Part shown: piece after piece, positions 544 to 4,744 of the stretch | Numbering within the stretch: the stretch's first letter is position 1 | Layout: every line of letters starts with the position of its first letter | Assembly (NCBI GenBank): GCA_947624985.1 | Contig: CANQMO010000024.1 | Coordinates: forward strand, 1-34,383 | Length of the DNA stretch: 34,383 nt | DNA from: an uncultured Oscillospiraceae bacterium | GTDB taxonomy: Bacteria > Bacillota > Clostridia > Oscillospirales > Oscillospiraceae | Direction of reading: 5' to 3' | Position numbers and translations under genes: made by a program | The notes under the pieces: model-generated | Database searches by the model: none | The model's input: only the letters and a program-made list of their open reading frames with translations | Told to the model about the DNA's origin: nothing

Positions 544-876
544 CTATTTTGTGCCTGTCCGAGTATTCTTTGCCCGGCGGCTCCTCTTCCAGATAAGGTA
601 CTCCGCATAATCGCGGATGTCGGCCTGTTCGTCGGAGGTCAGGGATTCCTGTCGCTTTTGGCGGTCAAAGTCAGGATCAGTGTCGGAAAGGCCTAGAAGG
701 AAATCGGCCGAGACACCATATAACCGGCAGATCTCTACGAGCGTTTCCTCCCGCGGTGTACTCTTTCCCTGCTCCCAACTCGACACGGTGTAATGGGTGA
801 CATGTAGCTTTTCTGCAAGTGTTGCCTGTGTGTCTCCCCGAAAATATCTGATCTCTGCCAGCCGATCGCCTTTCAT
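544..876 (-). CDS. XRE-family helix-turn-helix regulator next to methyltransferase/nuclease pair
   Basis: This is a 110-aa cytoplasmic DNA-binding protein. Residues 1-65 form a Cro/C1-type HTH domain: MKGDRLAEIR at the start, the turn region TQATLAEKLHVTHYTVSSWE, and the family signature LVEICRLYGVSADFLLGLSD. The C-terminal 45 residues are charged and probably helical (TSDEQADIRDYAEYLI), as in many clostridial phage-type repressors. The start has a good ribosome site (GGGGTGAGG, 4 bases before ATG). It is divergent from the methyltransferase gene, and the 151-bp gap holds the promoters of both and an inverted repeat at 898-915. By position it could play the part of a controller (C) protein of a restriction-modification system; that role is inferred. 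Confidence 0.9.
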   Translation of the reverse strand: MKGDRLAEIRYFRGDTQATLAEKLHVTHYTVSSWEQGKSTPREETLVEICRLYGVSADFLLGLSDTDPDFDRQKRQESLTSDEQADIRDYAEYLIWKRSRRAKNTRTGTK

Positions 877-897
877 CTTGCCTCACCCCATACAAGG

Positions 898-915
898 CAA
901 GTATAGATTAACTTG
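898..915. promoter_or_regulatory. Possible XRE operator (CAAGT-N8-ACTTG)
   Basis: A 5-bp inverted repeat, CAAGT (898-902) and ACTTG (911-915), surrounds a TATAC-like -10 for the leftward XRE gene. Its place between the XRE start and the methyltransferase promoter suits autoregulation by the XRE protein. The arms are short, so chance is possible. Confidence 0.4.
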
Positions 916-943
916 TGACTTATCAAACAAAATTGAAATTTTC

Positions 944-972
944 TTGCTAGTCATGCGTAAAAGTAGTAATAT
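944..972 (+). promoter_or_regulatory. Probable sigma-A promoter of the methyltransferase operon
   Basis: TTGCTA (944-949) and TAATAT (967-972) are separated by 17 bp, about 56 bp before the methyltransferase ATG. It lies 29 bp from the inverted repeat at 898-915, so the XRE protein could affect it. Confidence 0.5.
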
Positions 973-1027
973 AAATACTGCTTTCGGCAAAAAGTCGGAT
1001 GCTTCTTATCAGTCAGGGGGCATAGTT

Positions 1028-2158
1028 ATGGCAGGGAATTCAAACCTCAACGCAGCGGCCAAGGCCCGAAAGGACGAGTTTTACACTCAGCTCACGGATA
1101 TCGAGAAGGAACTGCGCCATTACAAGAAGCATTTTCAAGGCAAGACCGTCCTGTGCAACTGCGATGACCCCTTCGAGAGCAACTTCTTTAAATACTTCGT
1201 GCTGAACTTCAACCGGCTGGGCCTGAAAAAACTGATCGCTACCTGCTATGCCGGGTCCCCCATCGCCAACCGGCAGCTTTCCCTGCTCGACGTGACCGGC
1301 GTGGAGGAAAACAAAAACCGCCCCTATAAGGCGGTGGTGACCCAGGTCTACGACACCACCGGCGACGGCGGCGTGGACATGCTGGATGTGGCGGAACTGT
1401 TCAGATCCGGGGAGAACCAGCTGACCGAGCTGGATGGCGACGGCGATTTCCGCTCCCCGGAGTGTCTGGCCATGCTGGACGGGGCGGACATCGTGGTCAC
1501 CAATCCGCCGTTCTCCCTGTTCCGGGAGTATGTGGCAACTCTGATGGAGCATGGGAAAAGATTTATTATCATTGGAAATATCAACGTAGTTACTTACAAA
1601 GAATTCTTCCCTCTTTTGATGAACAACAAGGTATGGATCGGCCCAAGTATACACTCCGGAGACCGGGCGTTCTATGTCCCGGACGATTATCCGCTGGACG
1701 CGGCGGGCTGCGGCATTGACGAGACCGGGCGGAAGTTTATCCGCGTCAAAGGAATCCGCTGGTTCACAAATCTGGATTTTACACAACGTCACGAGGAAAT
1801 GATCCTTGTCAAACGCTATAGCCCGGAGCTATATCCAAAGTACGATAATTACGACGCTATCGAAGTGAGCATAACAGTAGATATTCCATGTGATTATCCC
1901 GGTATGATGGGTGTGCCGATTACATTTTTGGATAAATATAGTCCCGAGCAATTTGAAATAATTGGTATGGCAAAAAGAGGCGCAGGAGACCCCGCTTTGC
2001 GGTCGCATGTCTATACAAAGGACGAATATCCCAATTACAGCGACCTGAACGCAACGCCAACGATATGGATAAACGAGAAATTAAAGAATACCTATCCAAG
2101 AATCCTTATCCGCAACAAACATCCGGAGCCGCCAAAGGAGGATAATAAATGCAGATAG
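1028..2158 (+). CDS. EcoRI-family adenine-specific DNA methyltransferase
   Basis: This 376-aa protein would transfer a methyl group from SAM to adenine N6 in a specific DNA sequence. It belongs to the EcoRI methylase family (Pfam Adenine_MT EcoRI type): an early CNCDDPFESNFFKYF segment (residues 43-57) and the catalytic motif NPPF (159-162), preceded by DGADIVVT, are plain. I chose the ATG at 1028 because AGGGGG lies just before it. The frame stays open upstream to 797, but that part overlaps the divergent XRE gene and looks non-coding. The next gene starts inside the last codons (10-base overlap, AAAGGAGG at about 2135), so the two are translationally coupled. By eye, the second half (from about 1560) is clearly more AT-rich than the first, which suggests a mosaic origin. 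Sequence specificity cannot be read from the protein; several GAATTC sites exist in the window. Confidence 0.9.
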   Translation: MAGNSNLNAAAKARKDEFYTQLTDIEKELRHYKKHFQGKTVLCNCDDPFESNFFKYFVLNFNRLGLKKLIATCYAGSPIANRQLSLLDVTGVEENKNRPYKAVVTQVYDTTGDGGVDMLDVAELFRSGENQLTELDGDGDFRSPECLAMLDGADIVVTNPPFSLFREYVATLMEHGKRFIIIGNINVVTYKEFFPLLMNNKVWIGPSIHSGDRAFYVPDDYPLDAAGCGIDETGRKFIRVKGIRWFTNLDFTQRHEEMILVKRYSPELYPKYDNYDAIEVSITVDIPCDYPGMMGVPITFLDKYSPEQFEIIGMAKRGAGDPALRSHVYTKDEYPNYSDLNATPTIWINEKLKNTYPRILIRNKHPEPPKEDNKCR

Positions 2159-3258
2159 ACGAATTGAAGGTCACCGTGGGCCAAGTGTGCGAGGGCTACT
2201 TCAACGACGCGGAGGAGGGCGTGGTCGGCTATGACGGCCGGCTGGACATCCGCCCCCGGTATCAGCGGGAGTTCGTCTATAAGGACGCCCAGCGGGACGA
2301 GGTCATCCGCACGGTGATGAAGGGCCTGCCCCTGAATGTCATCTACTGGTGCAAGGTGAAAAAGGAGGACGGCGCCGAGGGCTTCGAGGTCCTGGACGGC
2401 CAGCAGCGCACCATCTCCCTGTGCGAGTATGTGGACGGCTCCTTCTCCGTGGACGACAAATACTTCTACAACCTGCCCTCTGACAAAAAGCGGCAGATAT
2501 TGGACTACCCCCTGTTCGTGTACGTCTGTGACGGCACGGACAGCGAGAAGCTGGACTGGTTCCGGATCATCAACATCGCCGGGGAGCAGCTCACCGACCA
2601 GGAGCTGCGAAACGCCGTCTATGCCGGCAGCTGGACCAGCGACGCCAAGCGGTATTTCTCCAAGACCGGCTGCGCCGCCGGCACCCTGGCTGGGGACTAC
2701 CTGAAGGGCTCGTCCATCCGGCAGGAATACTTGGAGACGGCCATCCTCTGGGCGGCCAGCGCCGAGGGGGAGACCATCGAGCAGTACATGGCCAAGCATC
2801 AGGACGACCCCAGCGCCGTGCAGCTTTGGAATTACTTCCGTTCCGTTATCGACTGGGTGCAGGCCATCTTCCCCAAGACCCGCCGGGAGATGAAGGGCCT
2901 GCCTTGGGGACTTCTGTTCAACCAGCACGGCAAGCGGACGGATCTGGACCCCCAGAAGCTGGAGGCTGAAATCCAGCGGCTGATGGGGGACGAGGACGTG
3001 ACCCGCAAATCCGGCATCTATGAGTACCTGCTGACCGGGGATATGCGGAAGCTGTCCATCCGTGCCTTCGACCGCCGAGATGTTCTGGCGGCCTATGAGC
3101 GGCAGGAGCACAAATGCGCCATCTGCGGCCAGACCTTCGAGTTTGACCAGATGCACGCCGACCACATCACCCCCTGGGTCCGGGGTGGCAAGACCGTGCC
3201 GGAGAACTGCCAGATGCTCTGCCGGGACTGCAACCTGAAAAAAGGTGCGCAGGAATAA
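2149..3258 (+). CDS. DUF262 (DGQQR) plus HNH nuclease
   Basis: This 369-aa protein has an N-terminal DUF262/GmrS-like domain carrying the signature DGQQR (residues 83-87), followed by T-I-S-L. In GmrSD, SspE and BrxU this motif belongs to a ParB-like nucleotide-binding domain that drives nuclease action. The C-terminus is a zinc-type HNH domain: C323/C326, H336-A-D-H339, N353, and C358/C361 (CAICG ... HADHITPW ... LCRDCN). All expected HNH residues are present, so an active DNase is likely. It overlaps the methyltransferase by 10 bases and so is made together with it. The pair fits a restriction-modification or related anti-phage unit in which the methyltransferase protects self DNA. Most characterised DUF262 nucleases attack modified DNA instead, so the logic is open. 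Confidence 0.9.
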   Translation: MQIDELKVTVGQVCEGYFNDAEEGVVGYDGRLDIRPRYQREFVYKDAQRDEVIRTVMKGLPLNVIYWCKVKKEDGAEGFEVLDGQQRTISLCEYVDGSFSVDDKYFYNLPSDKKRQILDYPLFVYVCDGTDSEKLDWFRIINIAGEQLTDQELRNAVYAGSWTSDAKRYFSKTGCAAGTLAGDYLKGSSIRQEYLETAILWAASAEGETIEQYMAKHQDDPSAVQLWNYFRSVIDWVQAIFPKTRREMKGLPWGLLFNQHGKRTDLDPQKLEAEIQRLMGDEDVTRKSGIYEYLLTGDMRKLSIRAFDRRDVLAAYERQEHKCAICGQTFEFDQMHADHITPWVRGGKTVPENCQMLCRDCNLKKGAQE

Positions 3259-3265
3259 TCGGTCG

Positions 3266-3330
3266 TTTAACGATACCCTGGCTGTTTAACGATACCCCGG
3301 TTATTTAACGAATCGCGGTAATTTAACGGT
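3266..3330. repeat. Four tandem ~19-bp repeats with core TTTAACG
   Basis: TTTAACG starts at 3266, 3285, 3304 and 3322 (steps of 19, 19 and 18 bp). The first two copies share GTTTAACGATACCC; the last two are more diverged. The block begins 7 bp past the nuclease stop codon. Such short arrays occur as protein-binding sites at transposon ends (for example IS21-like), in iterons and as operators. No transposase is nearby, so this may be a remnant end. Confidence 0.75.
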
Positions 3331-3415
3331 AGCCTCCGCTCAGAGCCTGCACTTTCACCCCGAAAGGCCCTCTCAAAACCGCGTCATACAGGTACCACAA
3401 CCCATAAAATGCAAC

Positions 3416-3439
3416 GCGCCAGGGCAGAAAGCCTTGGCG
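3416..3439 (-). terminator. Weak hairpin, possible terminator after tRNA-Leu
   Basis: On the minus strand CGCCAAGG pairs with CCCTGGCG (one mismatch) and is followed by TTGCATTTTAT. It lies about 60 bp beyond the 3' end of tRNA-Leu and could end that transcript. Confidence 0.4.
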
Positions 3440-3456
3440 TGTCGGCACAATATAAC

Positions 3457-3495
3457 GATAACGCAGTCGATACCCTTGTATCAAACTGCGTTATC
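3457..3495. repeat. Inverted repeat just past tRNA-Leu 3' end
   Basis: GATAACGCAGT (start 3457) pairs with ACTGCGTTATC (end 3495), with an inner GATAC/GTATC stem. It begins 5 bases beyond the tRNA CCA end on the minus strand. There is no T run, so it may be a processing or att-like structure and not a terminator. Confidence 0.6.
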
Positions 3496-3500
3496 AGTTA

Positions 3501-3587
3501 TGGTGCCGGTGGCGGGGGTCGAACCCGCACGGTGTCGCCACCGCCGGATTTTGAGTCCGGTACGTCTGCCAATTCCATCACACCGGC
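3501..3587 (-). tRNA. tRNA-Leu (anticodon CAA)
   Basis: The minus strand folds as an 87-nt class II tRNA with CCA encoded. The acceptor stem is GCCGGTG/CACCGGC, the D-arm is GATGGAATTGGCAGAC, and the anticodon loop CTCAAAA gives CAA (reads UUG). It has a long variable arm (GGTGGCGACACC) and a T-arm with GGTTCGACCC. The accessory cassette at 544-3330 lies past its 3' end, a common integration position. Confidence 0.97.
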
Positions 3588-3634
3588 ACGGCGTCCCCAT
3601 TATACAGGGGGACGCAGAAGAAATCAAGTTCTTT

Positions 3635-4744
3635 TCAGCCCGCCTTCATGGCCAGGAACGCGTTGATGAATCCGTCGATGTCCCCGTCCATCACCGCTTG
3701 GATGTTGCTGTTTTCATAGCCGGTCCGGGTGTCCTTCGCCAGTGTATAGGGCATGAACACATATGACCGTATCTGGCTGCCCCATTCGATCTTCATCTGC
3801 ACGCCCTTGATGTCCTCGATCTTCTCCAGGTGCTCCCGCTCCTTGATCTCCGCCAGCTTGGCCCGCAGCATCTCCTTACAGTTTTCCAGGTTCTGGAAGT
3901 GGCTGCGCTCCACCTGGCTGGACACCACGATACCCGTGGGCAGGTGGGTGAGCCGGACAGCGGAGCTGGTCTTGTTGACCTTCTGACCGCCCGCGCCGGA
4001 GGACCGGTACACGTCCATCTTGATGTCCTCGTCCCGAAGCTCGATCTCGCCCGCGTCGCCGATCTCCGGCATGACCTCCACGGCGGCGAAGCTGGTCTGG
4101 CGCCGCCCGGAGGCGTCGAAGGGACTGATACGCACCAGCCGGTGCACCCCGTGCTCGCTCTTCAAAAAGCCATAGGCGTTGTCGCCCTCGATCTTGATGG
4201 TGGCGGACTTGATACCCGCCTGGTCTCCGTCCTGCCAGTCCATAAGGGTGTATTTGAAGCCGTGACGGTCCGTCCACATGGTGTACATGCGGTAGAGCAT
4301 TTGGGCCCAGTCCTGGGCCTCGGTGCCGCCGGCCCCCGCGTGGAAGGTGACGATGGCGTTATTGGCGTCGTACTCCCCGGTCAGCAGGGTGGAGAGCCGG
4401 GTCTGCTCCAGCTCCGCGGCGAATTTCTCATAGCTGTCCGCCAATTCCGGCAGGAGGCTGTCGTCGTTTTCCTCCAGCGCCATCTCGCACATGGCGAACA
4501 TATCGTCCCACCCGGCAGACAGGCGCTGATAGGCGTCGCACTTATGTTGCAGGGCCTTCAGCCGCTGCTGCCCTTTCTGGCTGCGCTCCAAGTCGGACCA
4601 GTAGTCCGGCTCCTCCGCCTCCGCGTGGAGCTTCTCGATCTCCAGCTGGGCGTCCTCCAGGCGCATGGCCTCGGCCAGATGGTCCAGCTCCGGCTTGCAG
4701 GCGTTCAGTTTTGATTTGTACTCTTCAAAGTCCAGCATTGCCAT
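3635..4744 (-). CDS. prfB: Peptide chain release factor 2 (no programmed frameshift)
   Basis: RF2 ends translation at UGA and UAA by hydrolysing peptidyl-tRNA in the ribosome. The protein is 369 aa (the family is near 365). It has the SPF stop-codon-reading tripeptide (VRISPFDASG) and the catalytic GGQ loop (SSGAGGQKVNKTSSAVRLTHLPTG), and the N-terminal helical domain starts MLDFEEYKSKLN. The whole gene is in one frame: there is no in-frame UGA or frameshift site near codons 20-30, unlike E. coli and B. subtilis. Starts at 4744 (MAMLDF) and 4738 (MLDF) are both possible; GGAGAGGA lies upstream at a rather long distance. A leader hairpin (4765-4792) sits next to that site. It has its own promoter (4810-4838) and is not beside secA. 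Confidence 0.97.
   Translation of the reverse strand: MAMLDFEEYKSKLNACKPELDHLAEAMRLEDAQLEIEKLHAEAEEPDYWSDLERSQKGQQRLKALQHKCDAYQRLSAGWDDMFAMCEMALEENDDSLLPELADSYEKFAAELEQTRLSTLLTGEYDANNAIVTFHAGAGGTEAQDWAQMLYRMYTMWTDRHGFKYTLMDWQDGDQAGIKSATIKIEGDNAYGFLKSEHGVHRLVRISPFDASGRRQTSFAAVEVMPEIGDAGEIELRDEDIKMDVYRSSGAGGQKVNKTSSAVRLTHLPTGIVVSSQVERSHFQNLENCKEMLRAKLAEIKEREHLEKIEDIKGVQMKIEWGSQIRSYVFMPYTLAKDTRTGYENSNIQAVMDGDIDGFINAFLAMKAG

Follow-up and report, generated by a model that had tools for sequence, protein, structure and literature searches.

We analysed a stretch of 34,383 nucleotides from an uncultured Oscillospiraceae bacterium (assembly GCA_947624985.1, contig CANQMO010000024.1, positions 1 to 34,383 of the forward strand), which we call the window. 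Near its start lies a methyltransferase gene, here M, which overlaps the gene of a putative nuclease, here R; a regulator gene of the XRE family is divergent from them. M (1028..2158, forward strand, from the ATG at 1028 to the TAG at 2158) encodes 376 amino acids and is an adenine methyltransferase of the EcoRI type according to its open reading frame (ORF), Pfam and PADLOC. It matches PF13651 (EcoRI_methylase) with 493 bits over positions 1-345 of the 345 in the profile, as a Type II methyltransferase of the EcoRI type does, and has its NPPF motif at amino acid 159 (1502-1513). Furthermore, M.EcoRI from the E. coli plasmid NZ_OW967970.1, which encodes EcoRI plus its methyltransferase, shares 46% identity with it over 319 aligned positions. 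R (2149..3258, forward strand, ATG at 2149 to TAA at 3258; ORF and Pfam) encodes 369 amino acids. Its N-terminal domain is GmrSD_N, that is DUF262 (66.8 bits), with DGQQR at residues 83-87 (2395-2409), and its C-terminal domain is an HNH domain of PF01844 (55.7 bits, residues 323-367, 3115-3249). Both ORFs are intact and overlap by 10 bases (2149-2158).

An initial annotation of the same DNA had described an intact NPPF methyltransferase that overlaps by 10 bases a protein with DGQQR and a complete HNH domain, next to a divergent XRE gene; the ORFs and the Pfam matches confirm this. It had also called the pair a restriction-modification-like unit with a nuclease unlike EcoRI, and this description stands. 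R is not a PD-(D/E)XK nuclease of the EcoRI family: the Pfam scan (E up to 0.001) finds GmrSD_N, HNH and HNH_5 only, with neither DUF1524 (PF07510) nor a helicase domain. In PADLOC, R matches the full-length model PDLC03418 over residues 1-366 (509 bits, REase_II), while the model that EcoRI hits is PDLC03551; M and M.EcoRI both fall under one model, PDLC03297 (417 bits for M, MTase_II). Since PADLOC holds Type II models for both proteins, the gene pair is already known as an annotation. A structure comparison of R, in which residues from about 147 to 304 were barely tested, gave a DUF262 plus HNH fold with active-site and zinc spacing that match 4h9d. We were not able to find a credible solved structural relative of M.

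Pairing of the two genes

We asked how often the two genes occur together, starting with 300 genomes of the family of the window, its own genome included. PF13651 occurs in 20 of them and a long or contig-cut homologue of R in 19. Both are present in 18 genomes and adjacent in all 18, once across a contig break (as read from the search tables). In genome G103 only the first 46 residues of R are visible before the contig ends, and in G284 both genes are truncated. Two genomes have M only (G041 and G190), and the contig of G190 stops 104 bases after M.

A wider search with an alignment of R gave 80 genome loci (the best 80 of at least 397) and 80 loci on viral contigs (the best 80 of 180), a sample that is biased to close relatives and contains some near-duplicate viral rows. 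M lies directly upstream of R in 147 of these 160 loci, downstream in 5 and upstream at a distance of 0.6-1.6 kb in 4. The remaining 4, without M, all start at a contig end. M is thus found nearby in 156 of 160 cases, so the adjacency, which the initial annotation had proposed to count across genomes, is not peculiar to one strain. According to the record titles, the genome loci come from Bacillota, Bacteroidota, Campylobacterota, Patescibacteria, Actinomycetota, archaea and others. Among 118 distinct M-R pairs the genes overlap in 63 and are separated by 0-20 nucleotides in 36 more. As far as the sequences go, the pairing is near-obligate and usually tightly packed. The single fused ORF of M and R (L020/L064) was considered as a proof of contact between the proteins and dropped; we take it for a decayed remnant, because the C-terminus of M and the HNH domain of R are both missing.

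The dependence seems to run in one direction. We searched viral contigs with an alignment of M proteins that have a DUF262 partner, a query that biases the result towards such partners, and obtained 80 loci. A contig end truncates 3 of them; of the 77 informative ones that are left, 56 have R and 21 do not. One neighbour was scanned in each of ten of these 21 loci (within L270-L348). Two of the neighbours are D12 methylases and three have no Pfam match; the other five are a terminase, a portal protein, a DNA ligase and two proteins that resemble a poly(A) polymerase and a helicase, respectively. Since R is nearly always found beside M while M also occurs without R, R seems to need M and not vice versa.

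One could also read R as an enzyme of the Type IV kind, which cuts modified phage DNA in the manner of GmrSD or BrxU, with M as an unrelated neighbour or a decoy from the side of the phage. The DUF262 kinship of R would suit this reading, but the near-obligate pairing with a methyltransferase and the lack of DUF1524 in the Pfam scan of R would not, and we regard it as highly improbable.

Variable modules of M and the constancy of R

To locate the variable parts of M, we calculated the identity in windows of 15 residues for 92 pairs of loci in which R is at least 80% identical and the C-terminal module of M differs. In a segment after the NPPF region the identity of M falls to 0.39-0.46 per 15 residues, while R has no comparable dip (0.69-0.96). 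This identity dip, together with the classes described below, defines V1 (approximately residues 201-243; 1628..1756, forward strand), a putative first target-recognition segment. The C-terminal module, V2 (1910..2113, forward strand), is from sequence comparison the putative second one; it consists of a scaffold, GVPITFLDKYxPxQFEI, a hypervariable insert at about 1964-2092 and an end motif, YxRILIR.

For a quantitative comparison we took loci in which M and R are each nearly complete and encoded by one ORF. With this requirement, the loss of 20 loci in which the V2 scaffold did not fit the pattern and the merging of duplicates, the 160 rows became 129; after 4 repeat-bearing loci had been set aside, 125 loci and 7750 pairs were left. 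Single linkage gave 26 classes of V1 (the largest with 32, 26 and 20 members) and 54 classes of V2, where the cut-offs for the same class, 0.45 and 0.6, are our own choice. The identities of V1 and V2 are uncorrelated over the 7750 pairs (Spearman 0.016), and one V2 class is found with several V1 classes and across phyla. Judged from such sequence comparisons, V1 and V2 would be the parts of M that read DNA.

R, on the other hand, follows the core of M and hardly its modules: over the same pairs the Spearman correlation of R is 0.56 with the whole M core, 0.10 with V1 and 0.01 with V2. There are 49 pairs in which the identity of R reaches 0.85; the V2 class is the same in 6 of them, the V1 class in 25 and both in 5. 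For example, two Bacteroidales metagenome-assembled genomes (MAGs; L108 and L109) have R proteins with 98.1% identity (95.6% at the DNA level) but share just 22% identity in V1 and 17% in V2. We also looked for a segment inside R that might carry specificity, comparing same-class with matched pairs (all 97 same-class pairs for V2 and 150 of 459 for V1). We were not able to find one; the largest excess identity was only 0.052 per 15-residue window, and the idea was dropped.

As a control we used EcoRI systems. From 19 plasmid records with an EcoRI-like nuclease (the remainder being mostly repeat records of the same species) we took 8, and one genome locus in addition. A PF13651 methyltransferase could be compared in six of these nine loci; none was found in the examined stretch of two others (L248 and L253), and L254 was left out of the comparison. 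In the six pairs, which come from Escherichia, Klebsiella, Leuconostoc, Staphylococcus and Rhodococcus, the 15 comparisons give identities of 0.61-0.92 for the nuclease, 0.60-0.93 for V1 and 0.72-1.00 for V2. In contrast, DUF262-type pairs with R at 0.55-0.70 (n = 5910) have a median identity of 0.31 for V1 and 0.18 for V2. The control set is small, its pairs are not independent and the test is indirect. Nevertheless, the contrast is as one would expect if V1 and V2 set the specificity and if EcoRI, unlike the DUF262-HNH nuclease, recognises its site by itself. Thus R does not appear to have a specificity of its own matched to that of M: the modules are largely uncoupled from R, the opposite of what the six EcoRI pairs exhibit.

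Next, we surveyed the loss of either gene in 176 distinct loci with pieces of both. Both genes are intact in 144 loci, 14 have breaks at contig ends, and the rest are flagged as a broken M with an open R (13), an open M with a broken R (3) or both broken (2). Eight of the 13 loci with a broken M were found on inspection to have interior stops or frameshifts (L018, L083, L115, L135, L150, L155, L206 and L213). Since the TGA in L150 is possibly recoded, seven or eight loci with an open R and a broken M stand against three of the converse kind. Among the others, M is broken at a contig end in L016, L017 and L098, lacks the first 64 profile positions in L139 and has an in-frame TGA in L089, a record of Candidatus Gracilibacteria, a group that recodes TGA. 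One of the eight, L135, is listed as Rothia sp. P100 and not as a MAG, and L083 (1664-3998) has two tandem M genes, each with a single stop, followed by one open R. In the viral contig L213 a G11 tract lies at the frameshift in the M core (about 3149), possibly an on/off tract.

Both results bear on the conventional explanation, a Type II system in which R has a fixed specificity equal to that of M, with V1 and V2 varying for another reason, for example to escape phage inhibitors. The PADLOC assignments (M to MTase_II and R to REase_II) and the family that M shares with M.EcoRI would agree with it. However, it does not account for modules that are largely uncoupled from R yet fixed in real EcoRI systems. 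An open R next to a broken M is likewise hard to reconcile with a nuclease that has its own specificity, because such an enzyme should kill the cell unless another methyltransferase protects it. We therefore consider a conventional Type II system quite improbable.

Some lineages carry simple-sequence repeats inside M. We found them in 7 of 173 distinct M segments, all within V2: an (AG)n tract in L006, L009, L010 and L104, GACA repeats in L012, a G10 tract in Fibrobacter intestinalis (L136) and (GAGAA)12 in Riemerella columbina (L138). The M of the window has a single V2 and no such repeat, and so does not itself look phase-variable, and none of the 80 M-derived viral loci has a tract in M. 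In the six loci where the tract can be read through, all three frames behind it reach a V2-like end motif or a further complete V2. An automatic count gave the end motif for 11 of 12 alternative frames at these six loci versus 1 of 282 in 141 tract-free loci (L086); in the twelfth (L010) the motif lies beyond the 520-base limit of the count and was seen by eye. L012 ends within its tract at a contig end and gave 0 of 2 alternative frames in the automatic count. Another contig of the same genome, L026, which carries R, opens with the same repeat and has further copies of V2 in other frames, which suggests that these contigs are continuous with each other. At all six loci that have R on the same stretch, and in L026, R occupies a single open frame.

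We also compared the tract density of the parts over 170 loci. The sequence from V2 to R holds 5 tracts in its 42 kb. The M core has none in 137 kb, R has 1 in 184 kb, and elsewhere there are 17 in 867 kb; L012 and L138 are outside this count, and the poly-G of L213, in its broken M, was scored as elsewhere. The tracts could switch the second reader among three C-termini. This three-way switching is deduced from the reading frames, since two lengths of one tract were not seen. We tried to use length polymorphism as direct proof of slippage; a pattern scan for the poly-G site of L213 returned the same contig only. The left flank of the (AG) cassette is shared by 2 of 400 family genomes, both already in our set.

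The XRE gene and the flanks of the cassette

The XRE-family helix-turn-helix (HTH) regulator (544..876, reverse strand, 110 amino acids, HTH_3 match in Pfam) starts 151 bases upstream of M. Between the two genes a sequence scan finds the inverted repeat CAAGT-N8-ACTTG (898..915), a possible operator of the XRE protein; it is the only CAAGT/ACTTG pair with a spacer of 4-12 bases in the window, where by our own estimate about 0.3 would be expected by chance. The initial annotation had suggested that the XRE protein times the expression as C proteins do. There is little to support such a conserved timer. Using phmmer with the window protein as the only query and without a scan of other HTH families, we found a homologue within 1.5 kb upstream of M in just 5 of the 133 loci with enough upstream sequence, in divergent orientation in 4 (L126, L137, L142 and L079, the last with an R that shares 86% identity with that of the window). 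In six other close relatives (L002, L003, L004, L005, L016 and L021) no homologue was found near M, and the contig of L016 is cut just upstream of M. The XRE protein may regulate the copy in the window but does not belong to the system as a rule.

The XRE gene is followed downstream by a terminator-like inverted repeat (460-498), which is perfect over 19 bases and has a loop of 1 base. On the other side, the end given for the cassette in the initial annotation, 3330, is beyond R and outside the gene pair, inside a dispersed element (3256-3509) made of four TTTAACG repeats spaced by 18-19 bases and then a stretch of about 165 bases. Within this genome, contigs C1 and C7 hold more copies of both parts (88-93% identical), and the second part has copies in several genomes of the genus. 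A tRNA-Leu(CAA) gene follows shortly downstream (3501-3587) and is a possible integration landmark.

Proposed mechanism and comparison with known systems

We think it reasonably probable that M acts as both methyltransferase and specificity subunit, and R as an HNH nuclease gated by a nucleoside triphosphate (NTP) that acts only through M. Direction by M would fit an R that almost never occurs without M, stays stable while V1 and V2 change, is open when M is lost and lies in loci where V2 has three possible ends. In this scheme M would read its site via V1 and V2, which can be exchanged; the site would be bipartite, with each module probably responsible for one part. Judging by its family, M would methylate adenine. 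R would have no sequence specificity of its own and would be recruited or activated by M at unmethylated sites. Its DUF262 domain would bind and hydrolyse NTP as a gate, the C-terminal HNH domain would cut the DNA, and host sites methylated by M would escape. We infer the contact between M and R, the NTP gating, the cleavage, the protection by methylation and the role in defence from sequence comparison. If each of V1 and V2 reads part of a site, their free combination should usually yield non-palindromic sites and hence methylation of one strand. Such sites, in Type III and similar systems, go together with NTP use and two-site rules.

Several observations weigh against this proposal. Genome G014, the one family genome with R only, shows no M in the 189 bases that remain up to its contig end, and G206 and G253 contain, at other places, extra HNH-bearing fragments that are similar to the last part of R. 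At two loci from Paludibacteraceae MAGs (L109 and L112, approximately 2994-3947) a gene with HPFxDGNGR, which we take to be a Fic-type motif, lies between M and R, so the tight coupling is not universal, and no genuine fusion of M and R was seen in our loci. The 49 pairs with nearly identical R keep V1 fairly alike (median 0.73, versus 0.18 for V2), and V1 therefore seems less free of R than V2 and slower to change. Some contribution of R to specificity is conceivable, since same-class pairs have a weak excess identity near its residues 11 and 266 (z of 5.7 and 4.3; the pairs are not independent). M has a third stretch of low identity, at about residues 79-93 (0.42), and a variable N-terminus, both outside the analysis of V1 and V2. 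Potentially, there could also be a problem with the broken M genes: most loci come from metagenome assemblies, and some frameshifts may be errors.

The initial annotation had offered two options, a Type II-like system and a nuclease that recognises the methyl mark. The former loses ground because V1 and V2 are uncoupled from R, the latter remains the main rival, and a nuclease directed by M is a third option, not named there. As a mark reader, R would work like SspE and make no contact with M; its DUF262 domain would sense the N6-methyladenine (6mA) set by M on the host DNA, which would license NTP hydrolysis and an attack on unmarked DNA. This would fit the pairing, the freedom of the modules, the open R and the V2 tracts almost as well as direction by M. 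However, it would require R to sense 6mA whatever the context, and other, generic 6mA is present in many bacteria; this is why we prefer a nuclease directed by M. Moreover, the nuclease domain of R is a canonical HNH (PF01844), and Pfam did not report DUF1524. We consider mark sensing unlikely, though worth taking seriously.

Taken further, and with somewhat less than even confidence, we suggest a separate class of restriction-modification systems that is spread over bacteria and archaea. Here the methyltransferase would have two half-site readers, each exchanged independently of the other, and would guide an HNH nuclease that is gated by DUF262. In some lineages tracts would switch the second reader among three C-termini in three frames, so that one nuclease follows three specificities, and EcoRI would be the special case of one palindromic combination of V1 and V2 tied to an independent nuclease.

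As an annotation the pair is ordinary and widespread. What appears unexpected, as far as can be judged from the comparisons above, is a nuclease apparently without its own specificity, a methyltransferase that resembles a two-module reader and, in some lineages, a three-way slippage tract. In the literature, seen mostly as titles and the beginnings of abstracts, we did not recognise a description of how the pair works or of a three-frame switch. Going by the parts seen, the HNH endonuclease of PMC11473606, a 16.2 kDa enzyme, and PMC12409345 were judged unrelated.

The closest known system is that of EcoRI, with which the cassette shares the PF13651 methyltransferase. Both modules can be recognised in M.EcoRI, and its V1 has identities of 0.63-0.67 to members of class 4. 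By eye its V2 insert, FRKGxDxKDL..PYFRI, is like those of the repeat-bearing L009, L104, L136 and L012, while by identity it reaches at most 0.43 (L136, tied with L161; L009 and L012 were outside this comparison). The difference is in the nuclease, which is of the DUF262-HNH type in the cassette, and in V1 and V2, which are free beside a constant R. Most relatives of M.EcoRI in our samples sit with this other nuclease (18 of the 20 family genomes with PF13651 and 56 of the 77 informative viral loci, the second figure being biased). If the proposal is true, M.EcoRI, whose site is GAATTC, could serve as the key for reading the modules as half-sites.

GmrSD and BrxU, of Type IV, share with R the DUF262 domain with DGQQR, but R has an HNH domain of PF01844 instead of DUF1524, plus a near-obligate methyltransferase partner. 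SspE is licensed by phosphorothioate; the partner of R makes 6mA, judging by its family, and the nuclease domain is another one. DUF262 proteins are mostly associated with Type IV and Ssp systems, and they would gain a role in ordinary self/non-self discrimination if the proposal holds.

With Type III Mod and Res the cassette would share only the logic of a nuclease subunit and a methyltransferase with exchangeable recognition segments, some of which are phase-variable (ModS, according to an excerpt of PMC8125046). It differs in that M belongs to PF13651 and Pfam did not report the helicase domain of Res in R. If the nuclease follows the methyltransferase, new specificities could arise by swapping one short module. 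Slippage as such is known from the Type I system NgoAV, where, as an excerpt of PMC9577141 describes, slippage of a poly-G in hsdS1 changes the specificity and the loss of one G fuses two hsdS genes. The likeness to our loci is the slippage of a tract, which here is predicted to have three continuations in the methyltransferase instead; if true, this possible three-way switch would stand beside the known on/off and two-way switches.

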